Part shown: piece after piece, positions 28,302 to 43,521 of the stretch
How positions within the stretch are numbered: position 1 is the first letter of the stretch
Layout of the letters: each line of letters opens with the position of its first letter
NCBI RefSeq assembly: GCF_000317475.1
Contig: NC_019729.1
Span: 3,982,501-4,046,500, forward strand
DNA from: Oscillatoria nigro-viridis PCC 7112
GTDB lineage: Bacteria > Cyanobacteriota > Cyanobacteriia > Cyanobacteriales > Microcoleaceae
DNA length: 64,000 bases
Reading direction: 5' to 3'
Notes under the pieces: generated by a model
Seen by the model: the letters and a program-made list of their open reading frames with translations, nothing else
The model's database searches: none
Told to the model about the DNA's origin: nothing
Made by a program: the position numbers and the translations under genes

Positions 28302-29624
28302 CTAAATAAAGTGTTCCGAACCAAAATACAGGCGGTACAACTCGCAGCTTAGCGTACAGCGGTTGTTATCGATATGAATCAGCCCCATGCTAAATAATTT
28401 AGAAGCCACTATCGGATCTAATTCCACTCCGTGTTCCGATTTTACCACTTGTTTAAGTGCAACCGCCAGTTCGGGATACTCTTGCAAGGTTGTCCAAAAA
28501 CTCCGCAAGTAATCTTTATAAATTCCCGCTATTGTCGGAGCTTCTTGTAGTAGCCGATCTAGCCTTACACTGTTTTGACAGAGGTGGTAAAGAGCTAGCC
28601 GCACCAGATAAGGATGTCCCCCCACCATTGCCATCAGTCGATCGGCATTGGGGCCATCTGTCCAATCCAGTCCGTGACGCTGGGCTAAAGCAAGTATCTG
28701 CTCTTCTGTAAAATAGGGCAATTGCAGCGGTAAACCGACATTAAAAGGCGATTCAGTAAGCTTTAAAGGAATATAAATTTCTGTGGAGTGAAGAACAACT
28801 AACCGCAGTTTTCCCAAAGTTTCAATCCGCTTTGCTTCTTCATGCCAGCTTCGCAGCAGCGGCAAAAATTCTCGGGCAATTTTTGGATACTCAAAAATTC
28901 TATTTATTTCATTTAAAGCTAACACAAGAGGGGTACTTATTTTTGCTAATACATATTGTTGTAAATAGATGGTGCAGCTTACTTTGCCGCCCATGTCTTC
29001 ATCCCAATAATCATCTAATAGAGGTGGCAATTCTAGGTGACGGCTGATGTTGGCACAAAACCAGCGTAAAAATTTATCGAGGTTGTCTAAAACAGCTTCC
29101 TCGGCTTGCTGAAAATCTAAACTTACAGTTCGATAGTCAAGAGAAGTCGCGCGATCTAAAATCCTTAGCAGAAGGGAACTTTTTCCCATCTTCCTGGGAG
29201 CTTTAATCCGCAGCACACTTCCTGGTTTGGCAATCTCTCGATAGGCGAGTTCTTCAATTAGCGGGTGAGGGATATAAAATGGCGAATCGAGGGGCACGGG
29301 AGAGCCGGGAAATTCTAAAGGTGTTGCGAGGCATTGGCTGCGGGTTAATTCTTCAATTAATTCTCGTTCCTCTGCTGTCAGGGAACGTGATTCTACACAA
29401 GATCGAAAATTTGATTTGCTAATAGATGTCTGCAAGATTTGAGAGAGAGATTGCCATAAAGACGAGGCGATGTTTCTCAGGTAATGCTCTGCGTAATGAG
29501 AGCCAGATGCAATACTTGTATAAGTCTTTCCTTCCCAAACTTGGCGGAGTATTATTTCTTGTACTGGATATAAATCTTTTTGCAATCGGACACGAGTTAG
29601 CTGTAGTACCTCATCTATCGTCAT
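28302..29624 (-). CDS. VMAP-type HTH - AAA_35 NTPase
   Basis: The start is set at the ATG at 29624; the longer frame begins with TTG. The N-terminal about 75 residues (TIDEVLQLTRVRLQKDLYPVQEIILRQVWEGKTYTSIASGSHYAEHYLRNIASSLWQSLSQ) match the helix-turn-helix domain of vWA-MoxR-associated proteins. An AAA_35 NTPase follows, with APRKMGKSSLLLRIL (Walker A). The Walker B position reads LVLALNEINRIF, where Asn stands in place of the usual Asp. It lacks WD40 repeats and a transmembrane segment. Such proteins are counted among the NTP-dependent conflict systems of multicellular bacteria. No vWA or MoxR gene is adjacent. Confidence 0.75.
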   Translation of the reverse strand: MTIDEVLQLTRVRLQKDLYPVQEIILRQVWEGKTYTSIASGSHYAEHYLRNIASSLWQSLSQILQTSISKSNFRSCVESRSLTAEERELIEELTRSQCLATPLEFPGSPVPLDSPFYIPHPLIEELAYREIAKPGSVLRIKAPRKMGKSSLLLRILDRATSLDYRTVSLDFQQAEEAVLDNLDKFLRWFCANISRHLELPPLLDDYWDEDMGGKVSCTIYLQQYVLAKISTPLVLALNEINRIFEYPKIAREFLPLLRSWHEEAKRIETLGKLRLVVLHSTEIYIPLKLTESPFNVGLPLQLPYFTEEQILALAQRHGLDWTDGPNADRLMAMVGGHPYLVRLALYHLCQNSVRLDRLLQEAPTIAGIYKDYLRSFWTTLQEYPELAVALKQVVKSEHGVELDPIVASKLFSMGLIHIDNNRCTLSCELYRLYFGSEHFI

Positions 29625-30277
29625 AACTGGCAATAAGCATATAAGTGTATCGTTGATATTATCACTTATGATTGAGTGTAAAGCTCAGAGCGATCGCCTA
29701 TTCGATTCCCACACGCTCCTGTCGCGACATTTCTCAGGGGGTCATTGGTCACAGCGGTTAATTTTCCCCCGAAGAGTATCACTGTCAATAATAAAGAATT
29801 ACCTCGCGGGGTGGGGGCGGCTGTATTTAACCTGTCTGCACTGTTCAAGGGTACAAGAGTGAACCAATCTCTACAGGTTTTTGAGAATGGTTCTCTTCGT
29901 TAAATTAAATTCGTGACATCCGTTAAATCTAGTGATTGCCCCGTTGCCTGACCGATCGCTGAGTGCTATAACCTAATTTCAATGGGCGCTGGCGATCCTA
30001 CTGGAAAGGAATCTGCGCTCAGTTTTTCTCGATCGTCGGTCAAAATGTCATGTCGGTGTCACAGTTGATAGTAAAGGCAAAATTAAAAATGTGACAGTTG
30101 ACCTTGCTAAAGCTTAGTCGATCGATGTTAAGTTAATTAACAGTAGTTTCAGATCGCTGCCTTTACTCATCAAAAGTGTTAAGTCCAAGAGCCGAATTTT
30201 TATTTTTGTACCCGCCATTTTTAATTTTTTCCAGTAATCACTTCTCAAAAATATTAGCAAGTAACCAAGTTGATTTG
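29625..30277. other. Gene-poor interval before the ethylene-receptor kinases
   Basis: No complete gene is seen. A reading frame of about 38 codons ending at TAG 30115-30117 (...GVTVDSKGKIKNVTVDLAKA) looks like the C-terminus of a lost gene, but the family was not recognised and there is no start. The kinase promoter should lie after about 30120. Confidence 0.4.
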
Positions 30278-31831
30278 ATGCAAATGGTTCATGAAATGTT
30301 TTCAAATTATTTTATTCCTCACGGTCATTGCTACTTGTGGAAGCCTGGATTAGTGGGGCTACACGTTTTGTCCGATGGCTTGATAGCCGTCGCTTATTTT
30401 TTGATACCGATCACGCTGATTTATATTGTCAAAAAGCGGCAAGACGTGCCTTTTGACTGGGTTTTTATGCTGTTTGGCTCTTTTATTATCTGCTGCGGGA
30501 TTACCCATATTATGGAAATATGGACGCTGTGGCATCCTAATTATTGGTTCTCTGGTTTTCTTAAAGCGATTACGGCGCTGATTTCGCTATGTACAGCAGC
30601 ACTGCTGGTGGAACTAATCCCAAAAATCTTGGCTATTCCCAGTCCCGATCAATTGGCGGCGGCAAATTTGGCTTTACAAAATGAGATTGGCGATCGCAAA
30701 CAAGCTCAAGAAGCACTCTCGGAATTAATGCTAGAATTGGAAAAACGGGTGATAGAGAGGACGATCGCTTTAGAATCCACTAATGAACTTTTGCTACAGG
30801 AAAATCGCGATCGCTCTTTGGCTGAAAATTCATTGCGGCACTCTGAAGCTAAACTGCTAGAACAAACTCAGCAGTTAGAGAACGCTCTGCAACAACTTAA
30901 AGGCGCTCAAACTCAACTCGTGCAAACTGAAAAAATGTCGTCTTTGGGGCAAATGGTAGCTGGGGTTGCCCACGAAATCAATAACCCTGTTAACTTTATT
31001 TATGGCAATCTGATTCCGGCTGAGGAATACATTAAAGAGCTTTTAGAATTGATTAAGGCTTATCAAGTTTATTACCCCACTCCTGCACCGGAAATTGTAG
31101 ATAAAATTAACAGAATTGATCTAGGTTTTATTTTAGAAGATATGCAAAAACTTTTTCGTTCGATCAAAATAGGAGCGGAGCGAATTAGAGAGATTGTTAA
31201 ATCTTTACGCACTTTCTCTAGGTTAGACGAAGCCGACATGAAAAAAGTAAATATCCATGAAGGGCTCGATAGCACTTTAATGATTTTGCAGCACCGCTTG
31301 AAAGAACAACCAAACCGTCCGCCTATCCAAGTGATTAAAGAGTATGGAGATTTGCCAGAATTGGAATGCTACGCTGGGCAGCTTAACCAAGTATTTATGA
31401 ATATTTGTTCTAATGCTATTGATGCTTTAGAACAGATTGTACAGCAGGGAGATTTGACCAACGGCTATTGGGAAAATAATTTATGTGACGACTTACAAAA
31501 CACCTATTGCCCACTGCTAAAAATTCGCATCCGCACCCTTTTAGTTGATGGCAAGTGGGTGCAGATTCACATTGCGGATAATGGCACTGGCATAGATTAT
31601 GATGCGATCGCTAAAATTTACGATCCATTTTATACAACGAAACCTATCGGTGCTGGTACCGGGCTGGGTTTGGCGATTTCTTATCAGATTATTCAAGCCC
31701 ATGAAGGTTATTTGCGCTGCACTTCCGAGGTGGGGAGAGGTACTGAGTTTATTATTGAAATTCCTTTGCGATCGCAATTTGATGAGCGCTACATACTGCA
31801 AAAGGAAGCTGTTATGAACAATTTGGGTTGA
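30278..31831 (+). CDS. Sensor histidine kinase with ETR1-type ethylene-binding membrane domain
   Basis: The start is set at the ATG at 30278; the longer frame adds residues unlike the family. The 517-residue protein has three hydrophobic helices in residues about 23-118, opening with FIPHGHCYLW. Numbered from this start, Asp33, Tyr40, Ile70, Cys73 and His77 stand at ETR1 positions 25, 32, 62, 65 and 69, the copper and ethylene site. A coiled coil (about 130-220) leads to a kinase core with VAHEINNPVNFIYGNL (phospho-accepting His232) and an HATPase with N, G1 (DNGTGI) and G2 (GAGTGLGLAIS) boxes. No receiver is attached. It is 105 bases upstream of a second ETR1-type kinase. Ethylene binding is a strong inference from residues; it is untested. 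Confidence 0.88.
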   Translation: MQMVHEMFSNYFIPHGHCYLWKPGLVGLHVLSDGLIAVAYFLIPITLIYIVKKRQDVPFDWVFMLFGSFIICCGITHIMEIWTLWHPNYWFSGFLKAITALISLCTAALLVELIPKILAIPSPDQLAAANLALQNEIGDRKQAQEALSELMLELEKRVIERTIALESTNELLLQENRDRSLAENSLRHSEAKLLEQTQQLENALQQLKGAQTQLVQTEKMSSLGQMVAGVAHEINNPVNFIYGNLIPAEEYIKELLELIKAYQVYYPTPAPEIVDKINRIDLGFILEDMQKLFRSIKIGAERIREIVKSLRTFSRLDEADMKKVNIHEGLDSTLMILQHRLKEQPNRPPIQVIKEYGDLPELECYAGQLNQVFMNICSNAIDALEQIVQQGDLTNGYWENNLCDDLQNTYCPLLKIRIRTLLVDGKWVQIHIADNGTGIDYDAIAKIYDPFYTTKPIGAGTGLGLAISYQIIQAHEGYLRCTSEVGRGTEFIIEIPLRSQFDERYILQKEAVMNNLG

Positions 31832-31936
31832 GGCGTTAATAAATAATGCTGAATCTAGCTACAACTTTCGGTTTATTTTATTTTTTGCCTAACTTAGGTA
31901 TCATCAAATCCATATTATCTGGCAATAACAATAATT

Positions 31937-34900
31937 ATGTGGGAATCACTCAAAAATATCTTTTCTCCAACTCAGTATATGCCTCACGGTCATTGCTATC
32001 TTTGGCAAACGCCTTTAGTGTGGCTGCACGTAACTGGGGACTTTTTAATCGCGATCGCCTACTATTCAATTCCGGCGATGCTAATTTATTTTATCTTCAA
32101 GCGGCGCGATGTTCCTTTTTTAAGGATATTTGCTTTATTTGGTGCATTTATTGTTCTCTGCGGCACGGGTCACTTGCTAGAAATTTGGACGCTGTGGCAT
32201 TCCGCTTATTGGCTGTCGGGGATTGAAAAAGGAATTACTGGACTTGTTTCCTGCTTCACGGCCGGCTCGATGGTAACGCTATTGCCACAGTTTTTGTCTT
32301 TAAAAACCCCCCAAGAATTAGAGACCATAAATCGCAAGTTGCAGAGTGAGATCGCCGTGCGTGAAGATGCAGAATTAGCGTTGCGCCACGCTTATGATGA
32401 TTTAGAAATTAAAGTCCAAGAGCGCACCGCAGAGTTGACAGAAATTAACGGTTATTTAGAAGCAGAAATTAGAGAAAGAATAGCTGCTGAATCGGCTTTG
32501 CGAGAACGAGAAACTAGGTTGACAGAACAACAAAATGGCTTGCTAGAATTAGCAAAAAATTCTAGTATCTACGAGGGAAATATCGGCGAGGCGTTGAGAG
32601 AGATTACGCAAATGGCAACTCGTACTCTGAATGTCGCTCGGGCAAGTATTTGGTTTTATCAAGAAGATAAATCCGCAATGTACTGTGCGGATCTTTACGA
32701 ACTGACACCCAATCAACACAGCGGGGGTGCAGAACTGAAAGTTGCTGAGTATCCTAGCTATTTCCAAGCTTTGAATACAGAACAGGCGATCGCAGCGGTT
32801 GATGCCAAAACCGATCCCCGCACCCTAGAATTTAGCGAATCTTATTTGAAGCCTTTCAACATCTCGTCGATGCTAGATGTTCCTATTACCCATAAAGGGC
32901 AAATTGCGGGTGTAATTTGTTTAGAACATCAGGGAACAACCAGGAATTGGACGATCGACGAACAAAGCTTCGCTAGCTATGTGGCGCAGATCGCAGCTTT
33001 AGCAATGGAAGCTCGCGATCGCAAGCAAGCCGAGTTAAACTTGCGTTCTGTCACCGAACGCTTGCAATATTTGCTGGCGACTACTCCGGCGGTGATTTTT
33101 AGCTGCAAATTAGAGGGAAATTATGACGTAACATTTGTCAGCGATAATATTGTTTCAATGATGGGTTACGAAGCCAGAGAATTTCTTGATGGTTCCCTTG
33201 ATTGGCATAGCCTCATTCACCCAGACGATCGAGAAACTGTTGCAACTGCATTCGCTCAACTATTGGAAAAAGAATCGATTTCCTACGAATACCGCGAACG
33301 GCATAAAGACGGTAGTTATCGCTGGATTTACGATGAGATCAAGTTAGTCAAAGATGCTGCTGGTCTACCTGTGGAGTGCGTTGGTTATGGAGTAGATGTT
33401 ACTCTTCGCAAACAGGCGGAAATAGCGTTGCAGCAACAAGTAAAAAGGGAGCGGCTCGTAAATGCTATTCAAGAGCGGATTCGCTCCTCTCTTAACGTCG
33501 AAGAAGTAATGACAATGGCTGTGGAAGAAGTGCGCCAGTTTTTGTCAACTGATAGAACAGTTATTTACCGCTTTAATCCAGATTGGAGTGGATTTATAGC
33601 CGTCGAGTCGGTATCCGTCGGTACGATGCCGATTTTGGGAATTGACATTAATGACCCTTGTTTTAGAGAACGTTACGTCTCTGTTTACGAGCAGGGACAC
33701 GTGCGCGCGATCGACAATATTTATACGGCAGGTATTTCCGAGTGCCACGTTAATTTACTCAGCGAGTTGGAAATTAAAGCTAACCTCGTGGTTCCCATTT
33801 TGCAAGGTGAAAAACTATGGGGGCTACTCATTGCTCATCACTGCCGCAGTCAAAGGCATTGGAACTCTTCTGAGATAGAATCTCTCAAGCACATTTCCGT
33901 GCAGCTAGCAATTGCCATCCAGCAATCCACCCTTTTTGAACAAGCTCAAACAGAAATTGCCGAGCGCAAATTAGCAGAAACAGCATTACAAAAAGCTGTT
34001 GTAGCTGCTGATACAGCTAACCGCGCCAAGAGCGAATTCCTTTCTTCTATGAGCCATGAATTGCGGACTCCCCTGAATGCCATTCTTGGATTTAGTCAGG
34101 TGATGGTGCGCGATTCATCTCTCAACAATCAACACCAGCAGCACCTAGAAATTATTAATCGCGCGGGCGAGCACTTGCTTGCCCTAATTAATGATATTTT
34201 GGAAATGTCCAAAATTGAAGCGGGCAGAAGTCAGCTTAATGAAAGCAGTTTTAATTTAATGCGCTTGCTAAAAACCTTAGAAGAAATGTTTCGATTAAAA
34301 GCTAAATCTAAGAAATTGCAGCTAAATTTGGAAGTGGGTCAGGGTGTACCGCAGTTTGTTAGTGGAGATGAAGGTAAATTGCGCCAAATTTTGATTAATC
34401 TTGTAGGAAATGCGATCAAGTTTACAGAGAGGGGTAGCGTTACTTTGCGAGTGAAAAAGAAGGTAGAAGAAAGTTTGGGGGCTGAAACCGCAGAGTTGTC
34501 AGACACACAAGAAAGCTTGGCGGTTGAAACCGCAGCTATACAAACAAAACCCGCCTACGCGGGTTCTAATCAGTCCGCGCAGGCGGACTTTGATTGTGTA
34601 GACGCGAATTCTATTCGACCGGTATTTTTACAAAAGTCGGAATTATTACGCCTTCAGTTTGAAATTGAAGATACTGGCCTTGGCATTGCCCCTGAAGAGA
34701 TAAATAAGTTATTTGAACCCTTTGAGCAAACAAAAACAGGTCAAAAGTCTCAACAGGGGACTGGATTAGGTTTACCAATTAGCCACAAATTTGTACAAAT
34801 GATGGGAGGAGATATTACTGTCAGCAGTAAACATGAGTTGGGAAGTAAGTTTGCATTTGATATTCAAATCAGCCTTGCCACTCCCAGCGAAATTAAAAAT

Positions 34901-35596
34901 TTTAAATTGACAAAAAAAGTAATTGGTTTAGCACCTAATCAACCAGAATACCGGATTTTGGTTGTTGACGATCGCGCCGATAACGGCCTAGTCATAGACA
35001 GATTATTGTCACCACTAGGCATCGTCGTGCGATCGGCTAGAGATGGTCAAGAAGCTATTGCTATCTGGGAGGATTGGCAACCGCACCTGATCTGGATGGA
35101 TATGCAAATGCCTGTCATGGATGGCTATGAAGCCACCAGACAAATTAAAGCTCATCCTCTCGGAAAACAAACTGTAATAGTTGCTCTTACTGCTAGCGTT
35201 TTTGAAGAGGAACGACAAACTATTTTAGGAGCAGGCTGCGATGATTTCATGCGTAAACCCTTCGAGGCAAAGATATTATTTGCGAAAATGGAAGAACTTT
35301 TAGGAGTGCGTTACATTTACGAGGAATCTGTTGAGGCACCACTTGAAAATGAAAGCGAAATTAGCGGAGTGACCAGCAATCAATCTGTAGAATCACAAAT
35401 CGGCCAAATGCCTCTTGAGTGGGTAGAAAAGATATCTCATGCTGCTCATGAATGTTGCGACGATAAAATTGTCAAGTTGATTGAGGAATTGCCTAGAGAA
35501 TTTGCTTTAGCTGCAGAATTCTTAACTACTTTAGTGGAGGATTTCCTGTTTGACGATATTATAGATATAGCGCGCTCGGCAGTTGCGAGGAGGTAA
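31937..35596 (+). CDS. Hybrid histidine kinase: ETR1 ethylene domain - GAF - PAS - DXCF cyanobacteriochrome GAF - HK - REC
   Basis: The domains of this 1219-residue protein run: ETR1-type membrane domain (1-120; Asp35, Tyr42, Ile72, Cys75, His79 all at ethylene-receptor positions), GAF (about 205-360), PAS with PAC (about 372-495; FVSDNIVSMMGY, WHSLIHPDDRE, RHKDGSYRWI), a second GAF (about 505-665), HisKA (SMSHELRTPLN, His707), HATPase (about 807-980), receiver (Asp1055 in IWMDMQMPVMDG) and a helical tail. The second GAF carries DPCF (573-576) and Cys603-His604, the second-cysteine and bilin-attachment motifs of DXCF cyanobacteriochromes. This is the plan of Synechocystis Slr1212 (UirS/SynEtr1), a light and ethylene receptor. 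A dispersed repeat is inserted in the HATPase (about residues 848-897). Confidence 0.9.
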   Translation: MWESLKNIFSPTQYMPHGHCYLWQTPLVWLHVTGDFLIAIAYYSIPAMLIYFIFKRRDVPFLRIFALFGAFIVLCGTGHLLEIWTLWHSAYWLSGIEKGITGLVSCFTAGSMVTLLPQFLSLKTPQELETINRKLQSEIAVREDAELALRHAYDDLEIKVQERTAELTEINGYLEAEIRERIAAESALRERETRLTEQQNGLLELAKNSSIYEGNIGEALREITQMATRTLNVARASIWFYQEDKSAMYCADLYELTPNQHSGGAELKVAEYPSYFQALNTEQAIAAVDAKTDPRTLEFSESYLKPFNISSMLDVPITHKGQIAGVICLEHQGTTRNWTIDEQSFASYVAQIAALAMEARDRKQAELNLRSVTERLQYLLATTPAVIFSCKLEGNYDVTFVSDNIVSMMGYEAREFLDGSLDWHSLIHPDDRETVATAFAQLLEKESISYEYRERHKDGSYRWIYDEIKLVKDAAGLPVECVGYGVDVTLRKQAEIALQQQVKRERLVNAIQERIRSSLNVEEVMTMAVEEVRQFLSTDRTVIYRFNPDWSGFIAVESVSVGTMPILGIDINDPCFRERYVSVYEQGHVRAIDNIYTAGISECHVNLLSELEIKANLVVPILQGEKLWGLLIAHHCRSQRHWNSSEIESLKHISVQLAIAIQQSTLFEQAQTEIAERKLAETALQKAVVAADTANRAKSEFLSSMSHELRTPLNAILGFSQVMVRDSSLNNQHQQHLEIINRAGEHLLALINDILEMSKIEAGRSQLNESSFNLMRLLKTLEEMFRLKAKSKKLQLNLEVGQGVPQFVSGDEGKLRQILINLVGNAIKFTERGSVTLRVKKKVEESLGAETAELSDTQESLAVETAAIQTKPAYAGSNQSAQADFDCVDANSIRPVFLQKSELLRLQFEIEDTGLGIAPEEINKLFEPFEQTKTGQKSQQGTGLGLPISHKFVQMMGGDITVSSKHELGSKFAFDIQISLATPSEIKNFKLTKKVIGLAPNQPEYRILVVDDRADNGLVIDRLLSPLGIVVRSARDGQEAIAIWEDWQPHLIWMDMQMPVMDGYEATRQIKAHPLGKQTVIVALTASVFEEERQTILGAGCDDFMRKPFEAKILFAKMEELLGVRYIYEESVEAPLENESEISGVTSNQSVESQIGQMPLEWVEKISHAAHECCDDKIVKLIEELPREFALAAEFLTTLVEDFLFDDIIDIARSAVARR
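34497..34615 (+). repeat. Dispersed repeat in frame within the hybrid kinase
   Basis: ggcggttgaaaccgc, acccgcctacgcgggttcta and gtccgcgcaggcggac stand in a row, in frame, between the N box and the next beta strand of the HATPase domain. Close relatives are noncoding or terminal elsewhere (17536, 36932, 53829). Confidence 0.75.
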
Positions 35597-35777
35597 AAAT
35601 ACCAGTTTTCACCTAATCTAAACTTAGGAGATTTTTATATTTAAAAAATACCTAACATTAAGCCCCAAGAGCGTCTCCTTGCCATCTCTTTTTAGGAGAG
35701 CAAATCTGAATTTATATTGTGGCGTTTTTTGACGTACACTTCTTAAGTGTTAATATCTTTTATCTTGACAAACTACC

Positions 35778-37007
35778 GTGAGCGAGTGCATGGACAGCTA
35801 TCAATATCCTACAATTCAACCCAACATTTTAGTAGTTGATGATAAGCCCGATAATGTGCGGCTTTTATCTACAATCTTGACCGAACGAGGGTATCAGGTT
35901 CGTAAAGCGCTGAACGGGCAAAGGGCGATCGCTACAGTGCAAGAGTTTCCGCCGACTCTAATTTTGCTGGACGTGATGATGCCAGACATGAATGGATATG
36001 AGGTATGTGCAAAGTTGAAAGCTTCACCAAAAACCAGTTCCATTCCCGTGATTTTCTTAAGCGCCTTAGATGACGTTATAGATAAGGTGAAAGCTTTTGA
36101 GGTAGGAGGAGTTGACTATATTACTAAACCTTTTCAAGGTAAAGAAGTATTGGCACGAGTGGCAAATCAGTTAACTATTCAAAGTCAACAACACTTACTT
36201 CAAGAGCAAACGAAGCAATTCCAAGAACTTGTCGAACGTTTGCAAAACGAAATTAAAGAGCGGCAGGGGGTGGAGCTAGCTTTACGACTTGCTCAAACAA
36301 AGTCGGATCATTTGTTGCTGAATATTTTACCAGCAGCGATTGTTGAAAATTTGAAAAAGGGCGAGGGTTCTCTTGCCCAGAGGTTTGATTCAGCAACAGT
36401 TCTTTTTGCCGATATAGTCGATTTTACGTCTATTGCTGCTAGAATGTTACCTCTAGAATTGGTAAATTTACTGAACCAGATTTTTTCAATGTTTGACCAA
36501 CTAACTGAAAAACACGGTTTGGAAAAAATTAAAACAATTGGAGATGCTTATATGGTAGCGGGGGGGTTGCCTGTGCCGAGGGCAGATCATGTAGAAGCGA
36601 TCGCAAATATGGCCTTGGATATGCAGGAAGCGATCGCTGATTTTCAAACTGACAGAGGCGAACCATTTCAAATTCGGATTGGCATTCATACAGGGCCCGT
36701 AGTTGCCGGCGTAATTGGCACTAAAAAATTTATCTACGACTTGTGGGGAGATACTGTTAATGTTGCTTCTCGGATGGAATGTCAAGGATTACCGGGATAT
36801 ATTCAAGTTACTACTGATATTTACGAACTGTTAAAAGATCGGTATTTATTTGAGGAAAGAGGTACGATCGCGATTAAAGGAAAAGGAGAGATGATTGCCT
36901 ATTGGCTAAAAGCTAAAAAAGATGATTCGGCGGTTGAAACCGATGCTTGTCAAACGAAGTCCGCTCCTAGCGAACTAAGAGAGTACCCAAATACCCGAAT
37001 TATTTAA
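35778..37007 (+). CDS. Receiver - class III adenylate cyclase
   Basis: The 409-residue protein starts at GTG 35778 or ATG 35790. Residues 15-130 are a receiver (VVDDKP, phospho-acceptor Asp65 in LLDVMMPDMNGY, Lys117). A coiled linker (about 135-180) leads to a class III cyclase with metal Asp212 (FADIVDFT) and Asp256, purine-reading Lys252 and Asp321 (YDLWGD), and transition-state Asn328 and Arg332 (NVASRM). The Lys/Asp pair predicts ATP, not GTP, as substrate. It follows the ETR1/CBCR kinase by 181 bases on the same strand, so phosphotransfer from those kinases to this receiver is a natural hypothesis. The last about 25 residues derive from a dispersed repeat. Confidence 0.9.
   Translation: MSECMDSYQYPTIQPNILVVDDKPDNVRLLSTILTERGYQVRKALNGQRAIATVQEFPPTLILLDVMMPDMNGYEVCAKLKASPKTSSIPVIFLSALDDVIDKVKAFEVGGVDYITKPFQGKEVLARVANQLTIQSQQHLLQEQTKQFQELVERLQNEIKERQGVELALRLAQTKSDHLLLNILPAAIVENLKKGEGSLAQRFDSATVLFADIVDFTSIAARMLPLELVNLLNQIFSMFDQLTEKHGLEKIKTIGDAYMVAGGLPVPRADHVEAIANMALDMQEAIADFQTDRGEPFQIRIGIHTGPVVAGVIGTKKFIYDLWGDTVNVASRMECQGLPGYIQVTTDIYELLKDRYLFEERGTIAIKGKGEMIAYWLKAKKDDSAVETDACQTKSAPSELREYPNTRII
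36932..36975 (+). repeat. Dispersed repeat at the 3' end of the cyclase gene
   Basis: gcggttgaaaccgatgcttg followed by tcaaacgaagtccgctcc is a diverged copy of the unit at 17536-17582. It replaces the C-terminal codons (SAVETDACQTKSAPS) beyond the catalytic domain. Confidence 0.65.
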
Positions 37008-37056
37008 GAAGTCGGGCATCTCACCTAGGATCTAGGGATGAACGTCGAGCTAATCC

Positions 37057-38337
37057 TTAAAAAATGAAAATAATTTGCAGTTTCCAATTTGTATTTTCCC
37101 GGATGATTTCAATGCGATCGATAAATTCTCGAAAGTAAAACCTGCGTTCTGATTCTGATAAATCGAGCCAAAATTGCGGCAGGGAAACTGTTTGGGCAGT
37201 TTCTCGCAAATTTACTGGGGGCAGTTGCGCTAATTTGCTTTGCAGTTCGGCAATTTCGGTGCGGATTTTGTAGGCTCTAAACTCTGCCGTTTCGGTGTCT
37301 AATATGCCGCTGTCAATCAGGGCGGAAAGTTGCTGTATGATTTCTTGTTTGGAAGCGATCGCCCCGACAATTCCTGCTTTAATTCCATTCATATTCGGCA
37401 TTTGCAACCCAGCAACAGCATCGGGTAAATCCCGACAAATACCGGCGATGGTTAATTGCAATACTTCATCGTAGGAAAGGCCGCTACATTTAGGCTGTTT
37501 TGGACAGTTAATCGGTCGCAAATAAAGGTATTCTTTTTCTTTGCGGTAGGAGGTGACTTTGGCAACTGTCATGGGCGATTTGCATTCTGCACAAGTTGCT
37601 AAACCTGCAAGGGAACGCGGGGCGCTAGCGCTGCGAGGAGAAAGGCAGCGGTTGCGGCGCAGCAACCTGTCTATTTGGGCGGCTTCTTCTCTGGAAATAA
37701 TCGGGACGTGGGTGTTAGAAATTACTTGGCTGTTTTGATATTCCAAATCGCCTCGGTAGGCGGGATTTGTCAGCCAGCGGCGGCCGGTACTTACAGAGAT
37801 TTTTTTGTTGTATTTCTTGGCTAGATACCGCACGGAACCTCGCAATGAACCGTAGATTAAAAAGTGTTCAAAAAAGTCTTTGACGGTGGGGGCGGTGGTT
37901 TTATCGATCGTATAACAATCTTTGCCGCGCCGGTAGCCGTAAGGAGCCTTACCCGGTGGAATCCGGGATTTGATGCGGTTGCGCGCGTGCCCTTTGCGAA
38001 TACTCCTGCTGTGTTGGCTGCGCTGGATTTCTGCGAGGATGAGCAGCAAATTTTTGCGGTTTCGCGGTTCTGTTTCTGCTTGTACGATGATTTCGACGCC
38101 GAGGTTTTCGAGTTGGGCGAGGTGCGAACACACTTGCTGCAATGTGTCGCCTAGTTCTTCAAATCGCTGAATTAATAAGTATTTGACTGGTTCTGTTTGG
38201 CAGTCTTTGAGGAGTTGCTGAAGTTGCTGCCGCCCTCCTAAGTCTTGATAGGTGCGATCGACTTCTTGACCCCAAATTTCCGGTGCGGGTGCTGCTTCGA
38301 GTAGCGGTTCGGTGTAAGAATAAGCGATGATTTTCAT
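37057..38337 (-). CDS. Large serine recombinase-like protein with degenerate catalytic domain
   Basis: The 426-residue protein has the three parts of a large serine recombinase: an N-terminal resolvase-like domain, the recombinase DNA-binding region (PPGKAPYGYRRG... and NPAYRGDLEYQN), a zinc ribbon (CAECKSPM... CPKQPKC) and a coiled C-terminus. The N-terminal motif reads IIAYSYTEPLLEA where active enzymes have AYxRVSTxxQ, so the catalytic Arg and Ser are missing, and the LDRLGRS-type helix reads QRFEELGDTL. It is therefore unlikely to cut DNA by the usual route. It is 3 bases downstream of a VOC gene and convergent with the cyclase. A GC-rich insert (LSPRSASAPRSLAG) may be repeat-derived. Confidence 0.75.
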   Translation of the reverse strand: MKIIAYSYTEPLLEAAPAPEIWGQEVDRTYQDLGGRQQLQQLLKDCQTEPVKYLLIQRFEELGDTLQQVCSHLAQLENLGVEIIVQAETEPRNRKNLLLILAEIQRSQHSRSIRKGHARNRIKSRIPPGKAPYGYRRGKDCYTIDKTTAPTVKDFFEHFLIYGSLRGSVRYLAKKYNKKISVSTGRRWLTNPAYRGDLEYQNSQVISNTHVPIISREEAAQIDRLLRRNRCLSPRSASAPRSLAGLATCAECKSPMTVAKVTSYRKEKEYLYLRPINCPKQPKCSGLSYDEVLQLTIAGICRDLPDAVAGLQMPNMNGIKAGIVGAIASKQEIIQQLSALIDSGILDTETAEFRAYKIRTEIAELQSKLAQLPPVNLRETAQTVSLPQFWLDLSESERRFYFREFIDRIEIIRENTNWKLQIIFIF

Positions 38338-38700: not shown

Positions 38701-38928
38701 TTTTGTTAGGATTTATTGTTTTATTTTAACCGCTGATGCAGGCATATGAGCGCTGATGAACGCAGATTGGTTGATGTTTGTTTAGTTTTTGATATGATAA
38801 CATTGTCCGTCGCTATTAAATACATTCAAAACTGTTCTGAGTAAGTCGCGCTCGCATATTTTAGGATCGATTGTATTGTCTCTTTTTCTGAGTATGCTGT
38901 AAACTGCCCGCTGGGAGTGTTTTTAACA

Positions 38929-41073
38929 ATGGTTTCAGAAAAAAGTGCGATCGTCTCCAGAGCGGGCAAATTCCGCCTCCGCAATGTCTTGGTAGTTCCC
39001 TTTGTTCTCCAAATTTTGGCTGCTGTTGGCTGCGTTGGCTATCTCTCTTACAGAAACGGAGAGCAGATAGTCAACGATATTGTTAGTCAGTTGCGCCAGG
39101 AAGTGAGTGCGAGAGTTTACGAACGTGTTCAAACCTATTTGGAAGCTCCGCCACTGGTGAATCAGATCAATCAGGATGCTGTACCTTTGGGGGTGTTGAA
39201 CTTTGACGATTTGGAGCAAGCTAGACCATATTTTTGGAAACAAGTTCTGCAATTTAAATCGATCGGTCACGCGGGAATTGCCAACGAAAAAGGTCAGTAC
39301 CTGCGTGTGGGTTGGGTCAATCGGCTGGTTGGACTTGAACAACCTCAGCTTGCCCAGCAACTGATTCCGGGGGGTGGCGACTTGATATATTACAACCTTG
39401 ACGATAATGGAAACCCGACAACAATCGAGAAAACCACCCCCAATTATGATGTTCGCACGCGCCCTTTTTACAGAGTAGCTGTTGAGAAGAAACAGGCAGG
39501 TTGGAGTGAAGTTTATATTAATTTTGGCTACGGTACGCTGCAAATTAATGCGAGTCTACCCTATTATGATGCCGAAGGGAAACTAATAGGCGTGCTGACT
39601 TGCCAGATGGGACTCGATCAAATTCGCCACTTCCTGCAAACCTTACGTGTGGGCAATTCCGGTCAAGTATTTATCATTGAACCCCAGGGTGAGTTAATAG
39701 CCACTTCGGTTAAAGAACAGCCTCTTTCGGTGGGAACAGGCAAAGATACAAAGCGGCTCAAAGCACAGGAAAGCAGCAACCCACTGATGCGTCAAAGTGT
39801 GATTTATCTGCTCGATCGCTTCAAGCGTTTGGAAGACATCCATCAAACTGTTCAACTTGACTTTAAGCTAAACGGTGAGCGGCAATTTATCCAAGTTTCT
39901 CCGCTAACTGACAAGTACGGTCTCAATTGGCTGAGTGTAGTAGTAATTCCGGAAGCGGACTTTATGGCGCAAATTTATGCTAACACTCGCCAGACCATTT
40001 TGCTGTGTATGGTGGCTGTCATTGTCTCTGTTGGAGTGGGTATTTTCACCGCTAGCTGGATTACTCGCCCCCTAAACCAAATTGCTCGAGCTTCAGAATA
40101 TCTAGCAGGTGGTGCGCTCAACCAGAACGTTGCTTCCAGTCGGATTTGGGAAATTGAAACCTTAACAAATTCCTTTAACAGCATGGCGAGACAACAGCAA
40201 GAATCCTTTGAAACTCTAGAAGATAAAGTCAAAGAACGCACCTCTGAACTCGCCACAGCCACTAAACAAATTGCTGCTCTCAACCAGCTCCTGAAAGCGG
40301 AAAACCTCCGCATGAGCTCCGAACTCGATATGCTCAAACAAATGCAGCAGTTGATTCTGCCAAAACCTGCTGAACTCGCAGCCATTGAAGATTTAGATAT
40401 TGCCGGATTTATGGAGCCAGCCTCGGAAGTAGGCGGTGATTACTACGACGTACTTTGTACTAACGGGGTTGTCACTATTTGCATTGGTGATGTCACCGGA
40501 CACGGATTAGAAAGCGGCATTTTGATGGTGATGACTCAAGCTGCTGTCCGCACTCTTCAGGAAATGCAAGAATCCGACTCTGTGCGTTTTTTAGATACGC
40601 TTAACCGCACTATTTATAAAAATATCCAGCGCATGAACTCCGACAAAAATATGACACTAGCTTTGCTCAACTATGCGGAACGCAAAATTAGTATCAGCGG
40701 TCAACACGAGGAAACTATCGTAGTCAGAAGAGGCGGTAAAATTGAGCGGATTAACATGATGGATTTAGGATTTCCGCTCGGCTTAGATGAGGATATTTCC
40801 GATTGGATCAGCCATGTTTTAGTAGACTTAGAACCGGGGGACGGGGTGGTGCTTTATACTGACGGCATCCCGGAAGCTAGAAATATACACAAAAAATTCT
40901 ACGGTATCGAAAGACTCTGTGAAGTGGTTTCTCAAAACTGGCATTTGAGCGCCGAACAAATCAAGGAAGCTACCATCGCTGATTTGCGAAAATTTATTGG
41001 AGAACAAAAGGTATTTGATGACATTACTTTGCTAGTATTAAAGCAACAGGGAAATATTGTGCATAATTTATGA
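38929..41073 (+). CDS. Membrane SpoIIE-type PP2C serine phosphatase with Cache sensor and HAMP domain
   Basis: The start is set at ATG 38929; GTG 38917 is possible. Of 714 residues, about 20-45 form the first membrane helix, 50-345 an extracytoplasmic double-Cache sensor (RPFYRVAVEKKQAGWSEVY, TCQMGLDQIRHFL), and about 355-380 the second helix (TILLCMVAVIVSVGVGIFTA). HAMP (TRPLNQIARASEYLAGG) and a coiled coil lead to the PP2C/SpoIIE domain from about 475: EPASEVGGDYYDVL, ICIGDVTGHGLESGILM, VLYTDGIPEA, FDDITLLVLK, which carry the metal-binding Asp residues. Such phosphatases dephosphorylate STAS antagonists in partner switching. It heads an operon with a cyclase, an RsbW-like ATPase and a STAS protein; Synechocystis IcfG is the nearest known parallel. 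Confidence 0.9.
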   Translation: MVSEKSAIVSRAGKFRLRNVLVVPFVLQILAAVGCVGYLSYRNGEQIVNDIVSQLRQEVSARVYERVQTYLEAPPLVNQINQDAVPLGVLNFDDLEQARPYFWKQVLQFKSIGHAGIANEKGQYLRVGWVNRLVGLEQPQLAQQLIPGGGDLIYYNLDDNGNPTTIEKTTPNYDVRTRPFYRVAVEKKQAGWSEVYINFGYGTLQINASLPYYDAEGKLIGVLTCQMGLDQIRHFLQTLRVGNSGQVFIIEPQGELIATSVKEQPLSVGTGKDTKRLKAQESSNPLMRQSVIYLLDRFKRLEDIHQTVQLDFKLNGERQFIQVSPLTDKYGLNWLSVVVIPEADFMAQIYANTRQTILLCMVAVIVSVGVGIFTASWITRPLNQIARASEYLAGGALNQNVASSRIWEIETLTNSFNSMARQQQESFETLEDKVKERTSELATATKQIAALNQLLKAENLRMSSELDMLKQMQQLILPKPAELAAIEDLDIAGFMEPASEVGGDYYDVLCTNGVVTICIGDVTGHGLESGILMVMTQAAVRTLQEMQESDSVRFLDTLNRTIYKNIQRMNSDKNMTLALLNYAERKISISGQHEETIVVRRGGKIERINMMDLGFPLGLDEDISDWISHVLVDLEPGDGVVLYTDGIPEARNIHKKFYGIERLCEVVSQNWHLSAEQIKEATIADLRKFIGEQKVFDDITLLVLKQQGNIVHNL

Positions 41074-41225
41074 TTGACGGTCGTCCACCCGCTTTCTACG
41101 AAGGGTCTTGGATTTAGTGACCAAGCATCGAAGCCGAAACAGGATTCCGGTTCCACGCCTGTAAGTTATAATTTACAGCGAGGAAGTCAAACAATTTTGC
41201 GCTTCCAGATTCGGAAGTATAAATT

Positions 41226-42461
41226 ATGAAACCACAAATAAATGTAGCACGCTCTAAATCTCCCGAAGAACTCCATACCCAGCTACAGGAGTTGAGCCAA
41301 AAACTTGAGGAAGTAGAGGATGAAAAAAATAGCTATGAAACCTTAGTAGATATTATCACGCAACACTCCACGGATCTGGAAAATCAGATCCGTCATAAAA
41401 ATCGAGAGATGCAGACTTACATCGAGCAGGTAAAAAAGGTTATAGATGCAGCTATTGCTGTAAAAAACAATAGCTTTCAACCCCAGATATTGTCAGATGT
41501 GGCAGCGCGCAGTGATGCACTGGGAGAACTGGCACAGGTATTTTCTCATATGGTGCAAACGGTGAAAGCGCGGGAACAAGAATTAGAGAAACTTTTGCAG
41601 GCTTACGGACGTTTCGTTCCCGATGAATTTCTCCAATTTCTCGGCAAGCAGAGCATAGTTGATTTCCAGCTTGGAGATCACGTGAGCAAAGAGATGGCAA
41701 TTATGTTTTCCGATATGCGCTCGTTCACCACGATGGCGGAGCAAATGACTCCTCAAGAAAACTTTGACTTCATCAATAACTATTTACAGCAAATTAGTCC
41801 CGAAATTCGCAAGCACAACGGTTTTATTGTCAAGTATATTGGAGATGGAGTCATGGCAGTTTTTCCTGATGGCGTTGATGATGCTATTCAGGCAGGAATT
41901 GTGAAATTGGAGCAGTTGCAGAAATACAATCAAAGCCGTAAAATAAATGGGGATATACCGCTGAAGATTGGGATTGGTATCCATGTGGGTGATACGATGG
42001 TTGGGATTATTGGAGATGTGAATCGGATGCAAGCAGATGCGCTCTCAGATCATGTCAATCTCACCGCTCGTCTGGAAGGTTTGACTAAGTATTATGGCGT
42101 ATCTTTATTAATTTCTGGAGATGCGGTACAACGTTTGAGTCAACCCGAAAAGTATCATATCCGTTTTTTGGATCGGGCTATTGTCAAAGGTAGACAAGAA
42201 GCTATTACAGTTTGTGAGGTGTTAGATGTTGAAGTAGAACCAGTGCGATCGCTCAAAATTAAAACTTTACCTATATTTGAGGAGGGACTCCAAGAATATT
42301 CTCAGGGAAATTTTGCTAAGGCTATAGTTTGTTTTGAACAGATAGTAGCCCTAAATCCAGATGACAAGCCCAGTCAACTTTACCTAAAACGCATCCAATC
42401 GCTGTTAAAAAATAGTATTCCTGCTAACTGGAATGGCGTGTGGAAATTCACCCAGAAGTGA
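41226..42461 (+). CDS. Class III adenylate cyclase with N-terminal coiled coil and C-terminal TPR-like tail
   Basis: The 411-residue soluble protein begins with a long coiled coil (about 12-125). The cyclase domain (about 155-335) shows metal Asp163 (MFSDMRSFTTMAEQM) and Asp207, purine-reading Lys203 (IVKYIGDGVM) and Asp271, and VNLTARLEG for the transition-state Asn and Arg. The GD pair before VNL is SD (ALSDHVNL), as in a cyanobacterial subgroup I remember. The tail (EYSQGNFAKAIVCFEQIVALNPDD) is one TPR-like hairpin. No membrane segment or receiver is present, so it is probably controlled by partners, plausibly the phosphatase and STAS proteins of the same operon. Confidence 0.88.
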   Translation: MKPQINVARSKSPEELHTQLQELSQKLEEVEDEKNSYETLVDIITQHSTDLENQIRHKNREMQTYIEQVKKVIDAAIAVKNNSFQPQILSDVAARSDALGELAQVFSHMVQTVKAREQELEKLLQAYGRFVPDEFLQFLGKQSIVDFQLGDHVSKEMAIMFSDMRSFTTMAEQMTPQENFDFINNYLQQISPEIRKHNGFIVKYIGDGVMAVFPDGVDDAIQAGIVKLEQLQKYNQSRKINGDIPLKIGIGIHVGDTMVGIIGDVNRMQADALSDHVNLTARLEGLTKYYGVSLLISGDAVQRLSQPEKYHIRFLDRAIVKGRQEAITVCEVLDVEVEPVRSLKIKTLPIFEEGLQEYSQGNFAKAIVCFEQIVALNPDDKPSQLYLKRIQSLLKNSIPANWNGVWKFTQK

Positions 42462-42492
42462 CATTAATACATCAAGTGGAGGGAGAAAAATT

Positions 42493-43101
42493 ATGACATC
42501 TGGAAGCTTAAAAACAATGACACAAATCTTTGGAGAATTCATTGAAGAATTTCCTCCTGAACACGACTCCCTAGAACTTACATTTACCCCCAGTTCTCGC
42601 CCCATCAAACAGCGCTGGCGCAACAACAGGCTTTCAGCTCATTTTGTAGCCGATTATTTGTCTAGCTTTCTACCGGTGGATGAGGAAGATGCTAGGAGCG
42701 AGAAACGGATAAAAGAAAGCAAGGGAGCGGTGAGCTACGTAGCCAACGAACTGTTAGAAAATGCGATAAAATTTAATAACGATGATACTCATTACAAGGT
42801 CAGATTTGGCATACATTTTCTTGGTGAAATAGAGGTGACTGCGGTAATTTTTGCCAGTAATAGTGTCAATTCACAAGGGGCAAATAAGTTGAAGGAGTTT
42901 ATTGAAGAAATTCTGGATTCCGATCCAAATGAACTTTATTTGCAGCAGGTTGAAAAGAATGCGGAATCTGAAAGCGATACCTCGGGATTGGGATTGCTGA
43001 CGATGATTAATGACTATTCAGCTAAGATAGGTTGGAAATTCGATCGCAGGCCAGATAGTGATACCATCATTGTTACGACTGTGGTTCAAATTAGGGTCTA
43101 G
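42493..43101 (+). CDS. RsbW-like GHKL ATP-binding protein (serine kinase/anti-sigma type)
   Basis: The start ATG 42493 follows a strong ribosome site (ggagggaga). The 202-residue protein is a single GHKL domain: VSYVANELLENAIKFNND is the N box and ESDTSGLGLLTMINDY the G box; the Asp-x-Gly G1 box is replaced by VIFASNSVNSQG. There is no HisKA domain, so it is of the RsbW/SpoIIAB type, though longer. It probably binds or phosphorylates the STAS protein encoded 66 bases downstream, opposed by the SpoIIE-type phosphatase at the head of the operon. Confidence 0.8.
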   Translation: MTSGSLKTMTQIFGEFIEEFPPEHDSLELTFTPSSRPIKQRWRNNRLSAHFVADYLSSFLPVDEEDARSEKRIKESKGAVSYVANELLENAIKFNNDDTHYKVRFGIHFLGEIEVTAVIFASNSVNSQGANKLKEFIEEILDSDPNELYLQQVEKNAESESDTSGLGLLTMINDYSAKIGWKFDRRPDSDTIIVTTVVQIRV

Positions 43102-43167
43102 TTTCTAGCATTTCAATATTTACTCTCTTGTGCGATCGCAATATTTTAGTCAGGAAACACAATCACA

Positions 43168-43521
43168 ATGGGCATTCAAGAAATTAAAGGTGAAGATTAC
43201 AGCATTCAGTACGATGCAGAATCAGTCACAGTCACTTTCCAAGGCGAACTCAGCCTGAGCGGCCCTGCAGAGTATGCACCAATAGCCGAATTGTTAGATG
43301 AGGTCGCCAATGGCGAACCGCCTACTATTACCTTGAACCTAAAACAATTGGAATTTGTTAACAGTTCCGGTATCAGTATGCTGTCTAAATTTGTCATTAG
43401 CGTCCGAAAAAAGAAAACGATTCAACTTTTGGTATTGGGTTCAAATGATATTCCTTGGCAACAGAAATCTCTCAGAAATTTAGAAAAGCTGTTGCCAACT
43501 TTGAAGCTCGAATTAGGGTAG
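43168..43521 (+). CDS. STAS-domain protein (anti-sigma antagonist-like)
   Basis: The 117-residue protein is a single STAS domain: VTVTFQGELSLSGPAEYAPIAELLDEV, then ITLNLKQLEFVNSSGISMLSKFVI, where the NSSGIS motif contains the serine normally phosphorylated in SpoIIAA/RsbV proteins. A ribosome site (aggaaa) precedes the ATG. It closes the phosphatase-cyclase-kinase-STAS operon. Together they make a complete partner-switching set except for a sigma factor, so the output may be an enzyme such as the cyclase rather than transcription. Confidence 0.85.
   Translation: MGIQEIKGEDYSIQYDAESVTVTFQGELSLSGPAEYAPIAELLDEVANGEPPTITLNLKQLEFVNSSGISMLSKFVISVRKKKTIQLLVLGSNDIPWQQKSLRNLEKLLPTLKLELG

Follow-up and report, generated by a model that had tools for sequence, protein, structure and literature searches.

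A hybrid histidine kinase predicted to sense ethylene and violet/blue light adjoins a putative adenylate cyclase in Oscillatoria nigro-viridis PCC 7112 and its relatives

We analysed a window of 64,000 nucleotides from Oscillatoria nigro-viridis PCC 7112 (contig NC_019729.1, positions 3,982,501 to 4,046,500 of the forward strand; all positions below are those within the window), which encodes a hybrid histidine kinase of 1219 amino acids on the + strand (31937 to 35596). In the reading that we favour and consider probable, ethylene and violet/blue light would together set a phosphorelay that controls cyclic AMP (cAMP). This reading draws on the linkage of the kinase to a cyclase gene in 25 of 25 orthologous clusters, on the domains of both proteins, on the conservation of their key residues, and on precedents from Synechocystis and Anabaena; the cAMP output in particular we infer from gene linkage. 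Published work is cited here from excerpts of the papers, by PubMed Central number.

The kinase reading frame is uninterrupted from the ATG at 31937 to the stop at 35596, while the single reverse-strand frame translated over the same region contained many stops. Pfam placed ETR1_N, GAF_2, PAS_3, GAF, HisKA, HATPase_c, and Response_reg along the protein, in this order. The predicted ethylene-binding membrane domain (ETR1_N, amino acids 27 to 122; 32015 to 32302; PF25487, 6e-38) covers the profile almost completely (positions 2 to 97 of 97). The residues that a preliminary description of the sequence had named as the copper/ethylene set, D35, Y42, I72, C75, and H79, were all read at those positions, and the domain also holds I45 and P46, which we take to be the remaining two of the seven ETR1 residues. 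ETR1 is described as needing seven residues (PMC6682694). A simple hydropathy scan at a threshold of 1.6 gave two membrane stretches in the hybrid kinase and three distinct ones in the kinase encoded upstream of it. The first GAF domain (GAF1, a GAF_2 match; amino acids 216 to 358; 32582 to 33010) carries neither a DXCF nor a Cys-His motif. It is followed by PAS_3 (amino acids 399 to 483; 33131 to 33385) and by a second GAF, hereafter the light GAF (amino acids 521 to 661; 33497 to 33919; 1e-38 for the best of two Pfam stretches). Residue reading and alignment located in the latter the DPCF motif (amino acids 573 to 576, with the second cysteine at 575; 33653 to 33664) and the predicted canonical bilin-binding pair Cys603-His604 (33743 to 33748), again as previously proposed. 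The output half consists of HisKA (amino acids 697 to 763; 34025 to 34225), HATPase_c (34397 to 34864; amino acids 905 to 976 for the best of two stretches), and the receiver (amino acids 1007 to 1117; 34955 to 35287), with the usual residues in place: the phospho-acceptor His707, an N box from amino acid 821, G boxes at 912 and 941, Asp1055, and Lys1107. The additional GAF, the PAS domain, and the receiver fusion given in the preliminary description are thus borne out by Pfam. The HATPase_c loop at about amino acids 840 to 903 is partly repeat derived and varies widely in length among orthologues. Palindromic repeats occupy its coding sequence at 34540 to 34600 (about amino acids 868 to 888), and the element AGTCCGCGYAGGCGGACT, which sits in this variable loop, occurs in the genome as 10 exact copies, compared with 0 copies of its reversed control.

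Several observations support the assignment of the light GAF to the DXCF cyanobacteriochrome type and its prediction as a bilin binder. Among solved structures, it is closest to bilin GAFs of the phytochrome family (6oap, 5e-50; 6bhn; miRFP670nano), with TePixJ, the blue/green reference cyanobacteriochrome, lower in the ranking (3vv4, 1e-31). An AlphaFold2 model built from 16 aligned sequences (predicted local distance difference score, 91.5; predicted template-modelling score, 0.88) had the dual sensor kinase 6oap as its first match in the fold library (template-modelling score [TM], 0.90) and superposed on the blue-absorbing form of TePixJ (4fof) with a TM of 0.83/0.84 and a root mean square deviation of 1.4. 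The GAF of 6oap has no cysteine at the DXCF position; C575 and C603 of the window protein are spaced 28 apart, the same distance as separates DPCF and CH in TePixJ. In a tree of 70 GAFs, the window GAF grouped inside the cyanobacteriochromes, forming one group with six orthologues (support, 99/98) that nested with three GAFs resident in the same genome (99/91); the first of the outcomes that the preliminary description had named as refuting it, a GAF outside the cyanobacteriochromes, thus did not occur. A doubly linked bilin is reported to absorb blue light in the dark and to open to a longer-wave form in the light (PMC11284453). The genome contains three intact genes of the bilin reductase family, so that a bilin is likely available; a broken fourth copy lies at G000:C1:1228266-1228723.

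The predicted sensory residues are strongly conserved. Among 61 genomes of the family, 25 contained an orthologue of the light GAF at a cut-off of E ≤ 1e-75, one of them (G412) with a second, more distant match. The five ethylene residues were kept in 24 of these 25 orthologues and D573, C575, F576, C603, and H604 in every one, which argues that the motifs did not arise by chance. The D-x-C-F motif varied solely at x (P, Q, S, T, N, or D), and His707, N825, Asp1055, and Lys1107 were likewise present in 25/25. At the level of sequence, the earlier proposal of a two-input sensor for ethylene and light, of the dual-cysteine type, is thus supported. GAF1, real as it is in the window protein, is present in 11 of the orthologues, absent from 13, and outside the kinase frame in one (G391); we therefore rejected it as a defining part of the receptor.

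The closest functional clues lie beyond the kinase gene itself, in the adjoining cyclase and in the upstream kinase. The downstream gene (35778 to 37007, + strand) encodes a protein of 409 amino acids in which a receiver is joined to a class III cyclase. Its catalytic part has the metal residues D212 and D256, N328 and R332, and the adenylate-type residues K252 and D321, which align with the corresponding Lys and Asp of adenylate cyclase 9. In class III cyclases, this Lys/Asp pair indicates a preference for ATP. The downstream gene product is a probable cAMP-making enzyme, as predicted from these residues, and 15 cyclic-nucleotide-binding matches in the genome make possible cAMP receptors plausible.

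Using a cut-off of E ≤ 1e-150 and scoring the 30 best candidates per genome, we found a cyclase orthologue in 26 of the 61 family genomes, including all 25 with the receptor GAF. In all 25 orthologous clusters, it adjoins the hybrid kinase in the same orientation, at a distance of −7 to 183 bp; the copy beside the G412 kinase comprises only the first 106 amino acids, at a contig end. The twenty-sixth genome (G386) has the cyclase next to an ethylene-domain hybrid kinase whose GAF carries its second cysteine in an insert (insert-Cys). Eight receiver and catalytic residues were kept in 26 of 27 cyclase rows, the remaining row being the 106-amino-acid contig-end fragment, whose genome contributes its other piece to the 26. 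A search of 386 genomes of the phylum (E ≤ 1e-135) recovered the cyclase in 7, all among the 25, and shows its absence elsewhere only weakly, as scoring was confined to the top four candidates of each genome. No such cyclase was seen in the flanks (12 to 13.8 kb) of 20 other ethylene-cyanobacteriochrome loci among the matches listed. Seven receiver proteins typed from six of these loci comprised four receiver-GGDEF-EAL proteins, one of which sits 1.8 kb from its ethylene-cyanobacteriochrome kinase, one receiver-AraC, one receiver-HATPase, and one receiver alone. In a named collection, whose genomes overlap largely with the family genomes and are not independent of them, the full kinase-cyclase pair occurred at 19 of 76 loci; the hosts given there are Microcoleus, Tychonema, Kamptonema, a Lyngbya, and cyanobacteria with less exact names. 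At one further locus, L189 of Microcoleus vaginatus WJT46-NPBG5, an ethylene-domain hybrid kinase is followed by another cyanobacteriochrome kinase, and the fetched stretch contains no cyclase.

Upstream of the hybrid kinase lies a gene for a second ethylene-domain histidine kinase (30176 to 31831, + strand, 551 amino acids), which has all five ethylene residues and no receiver. Of the 25 clusters, 12 have this gene intact and 2 have it in split or damaged form; in 9 the fetched flank did not contain it, and in 2 the flank was too short. The five ethylene residues were unchanged in all 12 intact copies.

We propose the following course of signalling. Ethylene would bind, with copper, to the N-terminal ETR1-type domain, and violet/blue light would be absorbed by a bilin held in the DXCF GAF at Cys603 and, in the dark, also at Cys575. 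Both inputs would set autophosphorylation of His707, from which phosphate could pass to the receiver within the same protein and, in trans, to that of the adjoining cyclase. The altered cAMP level might then change motility or mat behaviour. The upstream kinase, where present, may feed the same cyclase or form mixed dimers with the hybrid kinase. The sequences show the domains and residues, their conservation, the gene linkage, and the mosaic pattern; ethylene and bilin binding, the colour sensed, phosphotransfer to the cyclase, the sign of each input, and the physiology are what we infer.

Known systems offer partial parallels. UirS/SynEtr1 (Slr1212) of Synechocystis PCC 6803, published as a receptor for ethylene and UV-A/blue light (PMC6682694, PMC3546692), shares with the window protein an ethylene domain, a PAS, a dual-Cys GAF, and a histidine kinase. 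The window protein adds GAF1 and the receiver, a comparison that rests on three UirS-like proteins (L060, L075, and L079) rather than on a named UirS sequence: none of the three gave a receiver match, and L075, the one tested, gave no GAF1 match. The UirS-like motif is E-x-C-F where the window protein has D-x-C-F, and a UirS-like locus (L152), which contributed the receiver-AraC protein noted above, has this receiver-AraC neighbour, as for UirR, in place of the receiver-cyclase. The likeness to UirS/SynEtr1 drawn in the preliminary description holds for architecture but not for descent of the light sensor, since a joint clade of the window type and the UirS-like GAFs was rejected (p-AU, 3.7e-5, in the approximately unbiased [AU] test), and with it orthology to UirS for the light GAF. 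Nor is the fused receiver, real by Pfam, a novelty, because the layout of ethylene domain, PAS/PAC, GAF, kinase, and receiver is published for GeiEtr2 of Geitlerinema PCC 7105 (1025 amino acids), to which the window protein adds GAF1 (PMC6682694). GeiEtr2 is known to us by description; loci of about that length and layout carry an insert-Cys rather than a DXCF GAF, and its reported neighbours are a diguanylate cyclase protein and starch phosphorylase (PMC6682694). The G386 orthologue (L145) adjoins the same cyclase, 66% identical, and differs in having one GAF more, no PAS match, and an insert-Cys light GAF. TePixJ (3vv4, 4fof) shares the fold and the DPCF and CH motifs of the light GAF but belongs, by its listing, to a methyl-accepting chemotaxis protein rather than to an ethylene receptor kinase. 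A last parallel, likened by description, is AphC-CyaC of Anabaena, which responds to red/far-red rather than violet/blue light; AphC, to our knowledge, has no ethylene domain. The resemblance lies in a phytochrome-like kinase for which an adenylate cyclase is the presumed phosphorylation target (PMC4284465). In Synechocystis, blue light raises cAMP and motility (PMC4284465), and ethylene is taken to inhibit the receptor (PMC5812497) and speeds movement (PMC7700396, figure legend).

Several points weigh against a phosphorelay from ethylene and violet/blue light to cAMP. Linkage and co-loss of kinase and cyclase fall short of proving phosphotransfer. Pfam detected no HPt domain in the hybrid kinase, including its C terminus (amino acids 1123 to 1219), that would carry phosphate onward from its own receiver; a C-terminal HPt was also discarded as a candidate by eye, as L145 does not keep the His residues of the last helices. 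Promoter and terminator scans of 29600 to 37200 yielded no more than shuffled sequences. In G391 (L143, 3016 to 5340), the ethylene part lies in another, interrupted frame, while PAS, DXCF GAF, kinase, and receiver remain intact beside the cyclase. Finally, Geitlerinema possesses a receptor with a comparable layout, yet ethylene altered the behaviour of its cells in red light and not in green or blue light, and they displayed no blue phototaxis, even in air (PMC6682694).

These points leave room for other explanations. Hybrid kinases often feed unlinked partners, and both signals could be sensed here with the output passing through the kinase's own receiver to an unlinked regulator, the cyclase being under other kinases such as the upstream ethylene-domain kinase. 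Related kinase domains abound in the genome, with 274 matches to the hybrid kinase protein, and the upstream kinase has an intact acceptor His and no receiver of its own. Set against this are the constant position of the cyclase beside the hybrid kinase (25/25) and the patchy occurrence of the upstream kinase, missing from the fetched flank in 9 clusters and damaged or split in 2, so we regard this arrangement as unlikely, if the strongest of the competitors. A pure light sensor, with the ethylene domain acting as a membrane anchor or as a copper or oxidant sensor and ethylene not a physiological input, would suit the out-of-frame ethylene part of G391 and the link of the plant ETR1 N terminus to peroxide signalling (PMC3546692). 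It seems improbable given that the five-residue copper/ethylene set is invariant in 24 of the 25 orthologues as well as in each of the 12 intact upstream kinases, and that SynEtr1, whose ethylene domain is of the same type, does bind ethylene (PMC6682694). Least credible of all, and in our judgement very improbable, is a pure gas sensor whose light GAF is structural or apo and whose motif is a relic: loss of the canonical Cys does occur, as a resident GAF near the window subclade (L124) has EH for CH, but both cysteines and His604 never vary among the 25 orthologues.

The hybrid kinase is itself a mosaic, judging from piecewise sequence identities. Compared with the G386 protein (L145), it is 83% identical in the ethylene domain, 56% in GAF1, 75% in HisKA, 45% in HATPase, 61% in the receiver, and 40% in the C terminus; its PAS has no match there, and its light GAF is only 33% identical. 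The light GAF is instead 64 to 67% identical to those of two resident kinases (L002, L008) and 57% to that of a third (L003), whose PAS domains match the hybrid kinase PAS weakly (30 to 36%). The ethylene domain, GAF1, kinase, and receiver thus resemble those of a relative whose light sensor is of the insert-Cys type, and the light GAF resembles those of resident DXCF kinases. From these identities, the light module, to which the PAS probably belongs, seems to have passed from a kinase of the resident type to an ethylene receptor, which retained its cyclase partner; the reverse order of exchange is less simple.

A wider comparison drew on 69 other ethylene-domain frames of at least 800 amino acids, among the matches listed, and a few more from this and other genomes; seven ETR1_N matches occur in the O. 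nigro-viridis genome. A tree of the ethylene domains (80 rows and 130 columns, with many unresolved forks) grouped the window type with the insert-Cys proteins L145 and L068 (99/88). This group falls inside a 30-row set (97/97) made up of 27 of the 34 ethylene-cyanobacteriochrome rows among the matches listed and 3 rows that lack such a GAF. The three UirS-like rows joined this set weakly (82/39), and four insert-Cys rows (L040, L050, L065, and L071) lay elsewhere; a single ethylene-domain lineage for all was thus not fully borne out. In the GAF tree, ethylene-linked GAFs fell into separate supported groups, each including GAFs without an ethylene domain. One clade of all ethylene-linked light GAFs was rejected (p-AU, 9.8e-5), and a joint clade of the window type with a second DXCF type (G002, G066, G298, and G207) was not (p-AU, 0.24), so we place the ethylene-linked light GAFs in at least three, and not four, parts of the tree. 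The AU test presupposes that groups are named in advance of seeing the tree, and those used here were named by architecture after viewing it; the GAF tree cannot separate gain from loss. Two insert-Cys GAFs of the O. nigro-viridis genome (L121, L122) grouped with ethylene-linked insert-Cys GAFs, with no ethylene domain at those places.

Two cysteines are present in every one of the 34 ethylene-linked GAFs of the tree set, again among the matches listed (14 with [DE]-x-C-F and 20 with an insert Cys); weak GAF matches without a canonical Cys (L074, L076) and duplicates (L001, L020) were left out of this count. The insert-Cys class is described as having a near-UV to violet dark state (PMC5240096). 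As background, 15 of the 23 other canonical-Cys GAFs in the genome, two of which look phytochrome-like, are also of the two-Cys type, a figure that rises to 17 when the offset Cys residues of L104 and L112 are included. Given this background, and because the 34 amount to only about three independent cases, the apparent two-Cys enrichment behind the ethylene domain is suggestive but not significant.

Elsewhere in the window, a row of genes at 38917 to 43521 encodes, by Pfam, a dCache-HAMP-SpoIIE phosphatase, a class III cyclase with a TPR-like tail, a DUF6272 protein, and a STAS protein, presumably a partner-switching set of the Sia/Hmp type that includes a cyclase. No RNA family reached its gathering threshold in the 64 kb.

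Dual ethylene and light sensing is a known principle from UirS/SynEtr1, as is the ETR-PAS-GAF-kinase-receiver layout from GeiEtr2. What goes beyond them is the conserved cyclase linkage, the 25/25 conservation of the cysteines, and the mosaic light module, all read from sequence. Among the matches listed from open-licence papers, searched by titles and abstract openings, we found no ethylene-domain kinase linked to cAMP or adenylate cyclase and no account of light-module exchange in ethylene receptors; these listings gave one paper for kinases of Oscillatoria nigro-viridis and none for UirS together with DXCF. A review describes the benefit of ethylene control of photobehaviour as unclear (PMC5812497). 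Natural variation affecting the light module, the additional GAF, or the ethylene part makes this question of benefit testable, and a conserved gene pair joining two inputs to a cyclase offers a short, measurable readout in cAMP. Tentatively, and with more doubt than confidence, we suggest that most cyanobacterial ethylene/light receptors share one ethylene-domain lineage in which the light sensor was exchanged at least once, and probably more often, the partner changed among AraC control, cyclic di-GMP enzymes, and a cAMP cyclase, and every sensor acquired is nevertheless of the two-Cys, near-UV-to-blue type. If true, this would point to selection for reading ethylene jointly with short-wavelength light, for example as a cue to the action of sunlight on dissolved organic matter. 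For mat-forming cyanobacteria, the gene pair suggests a gas-plus-light switch with a cAMP output, and in Microcoleus-type mats, the answer to such conditions would be a cAMP signal.

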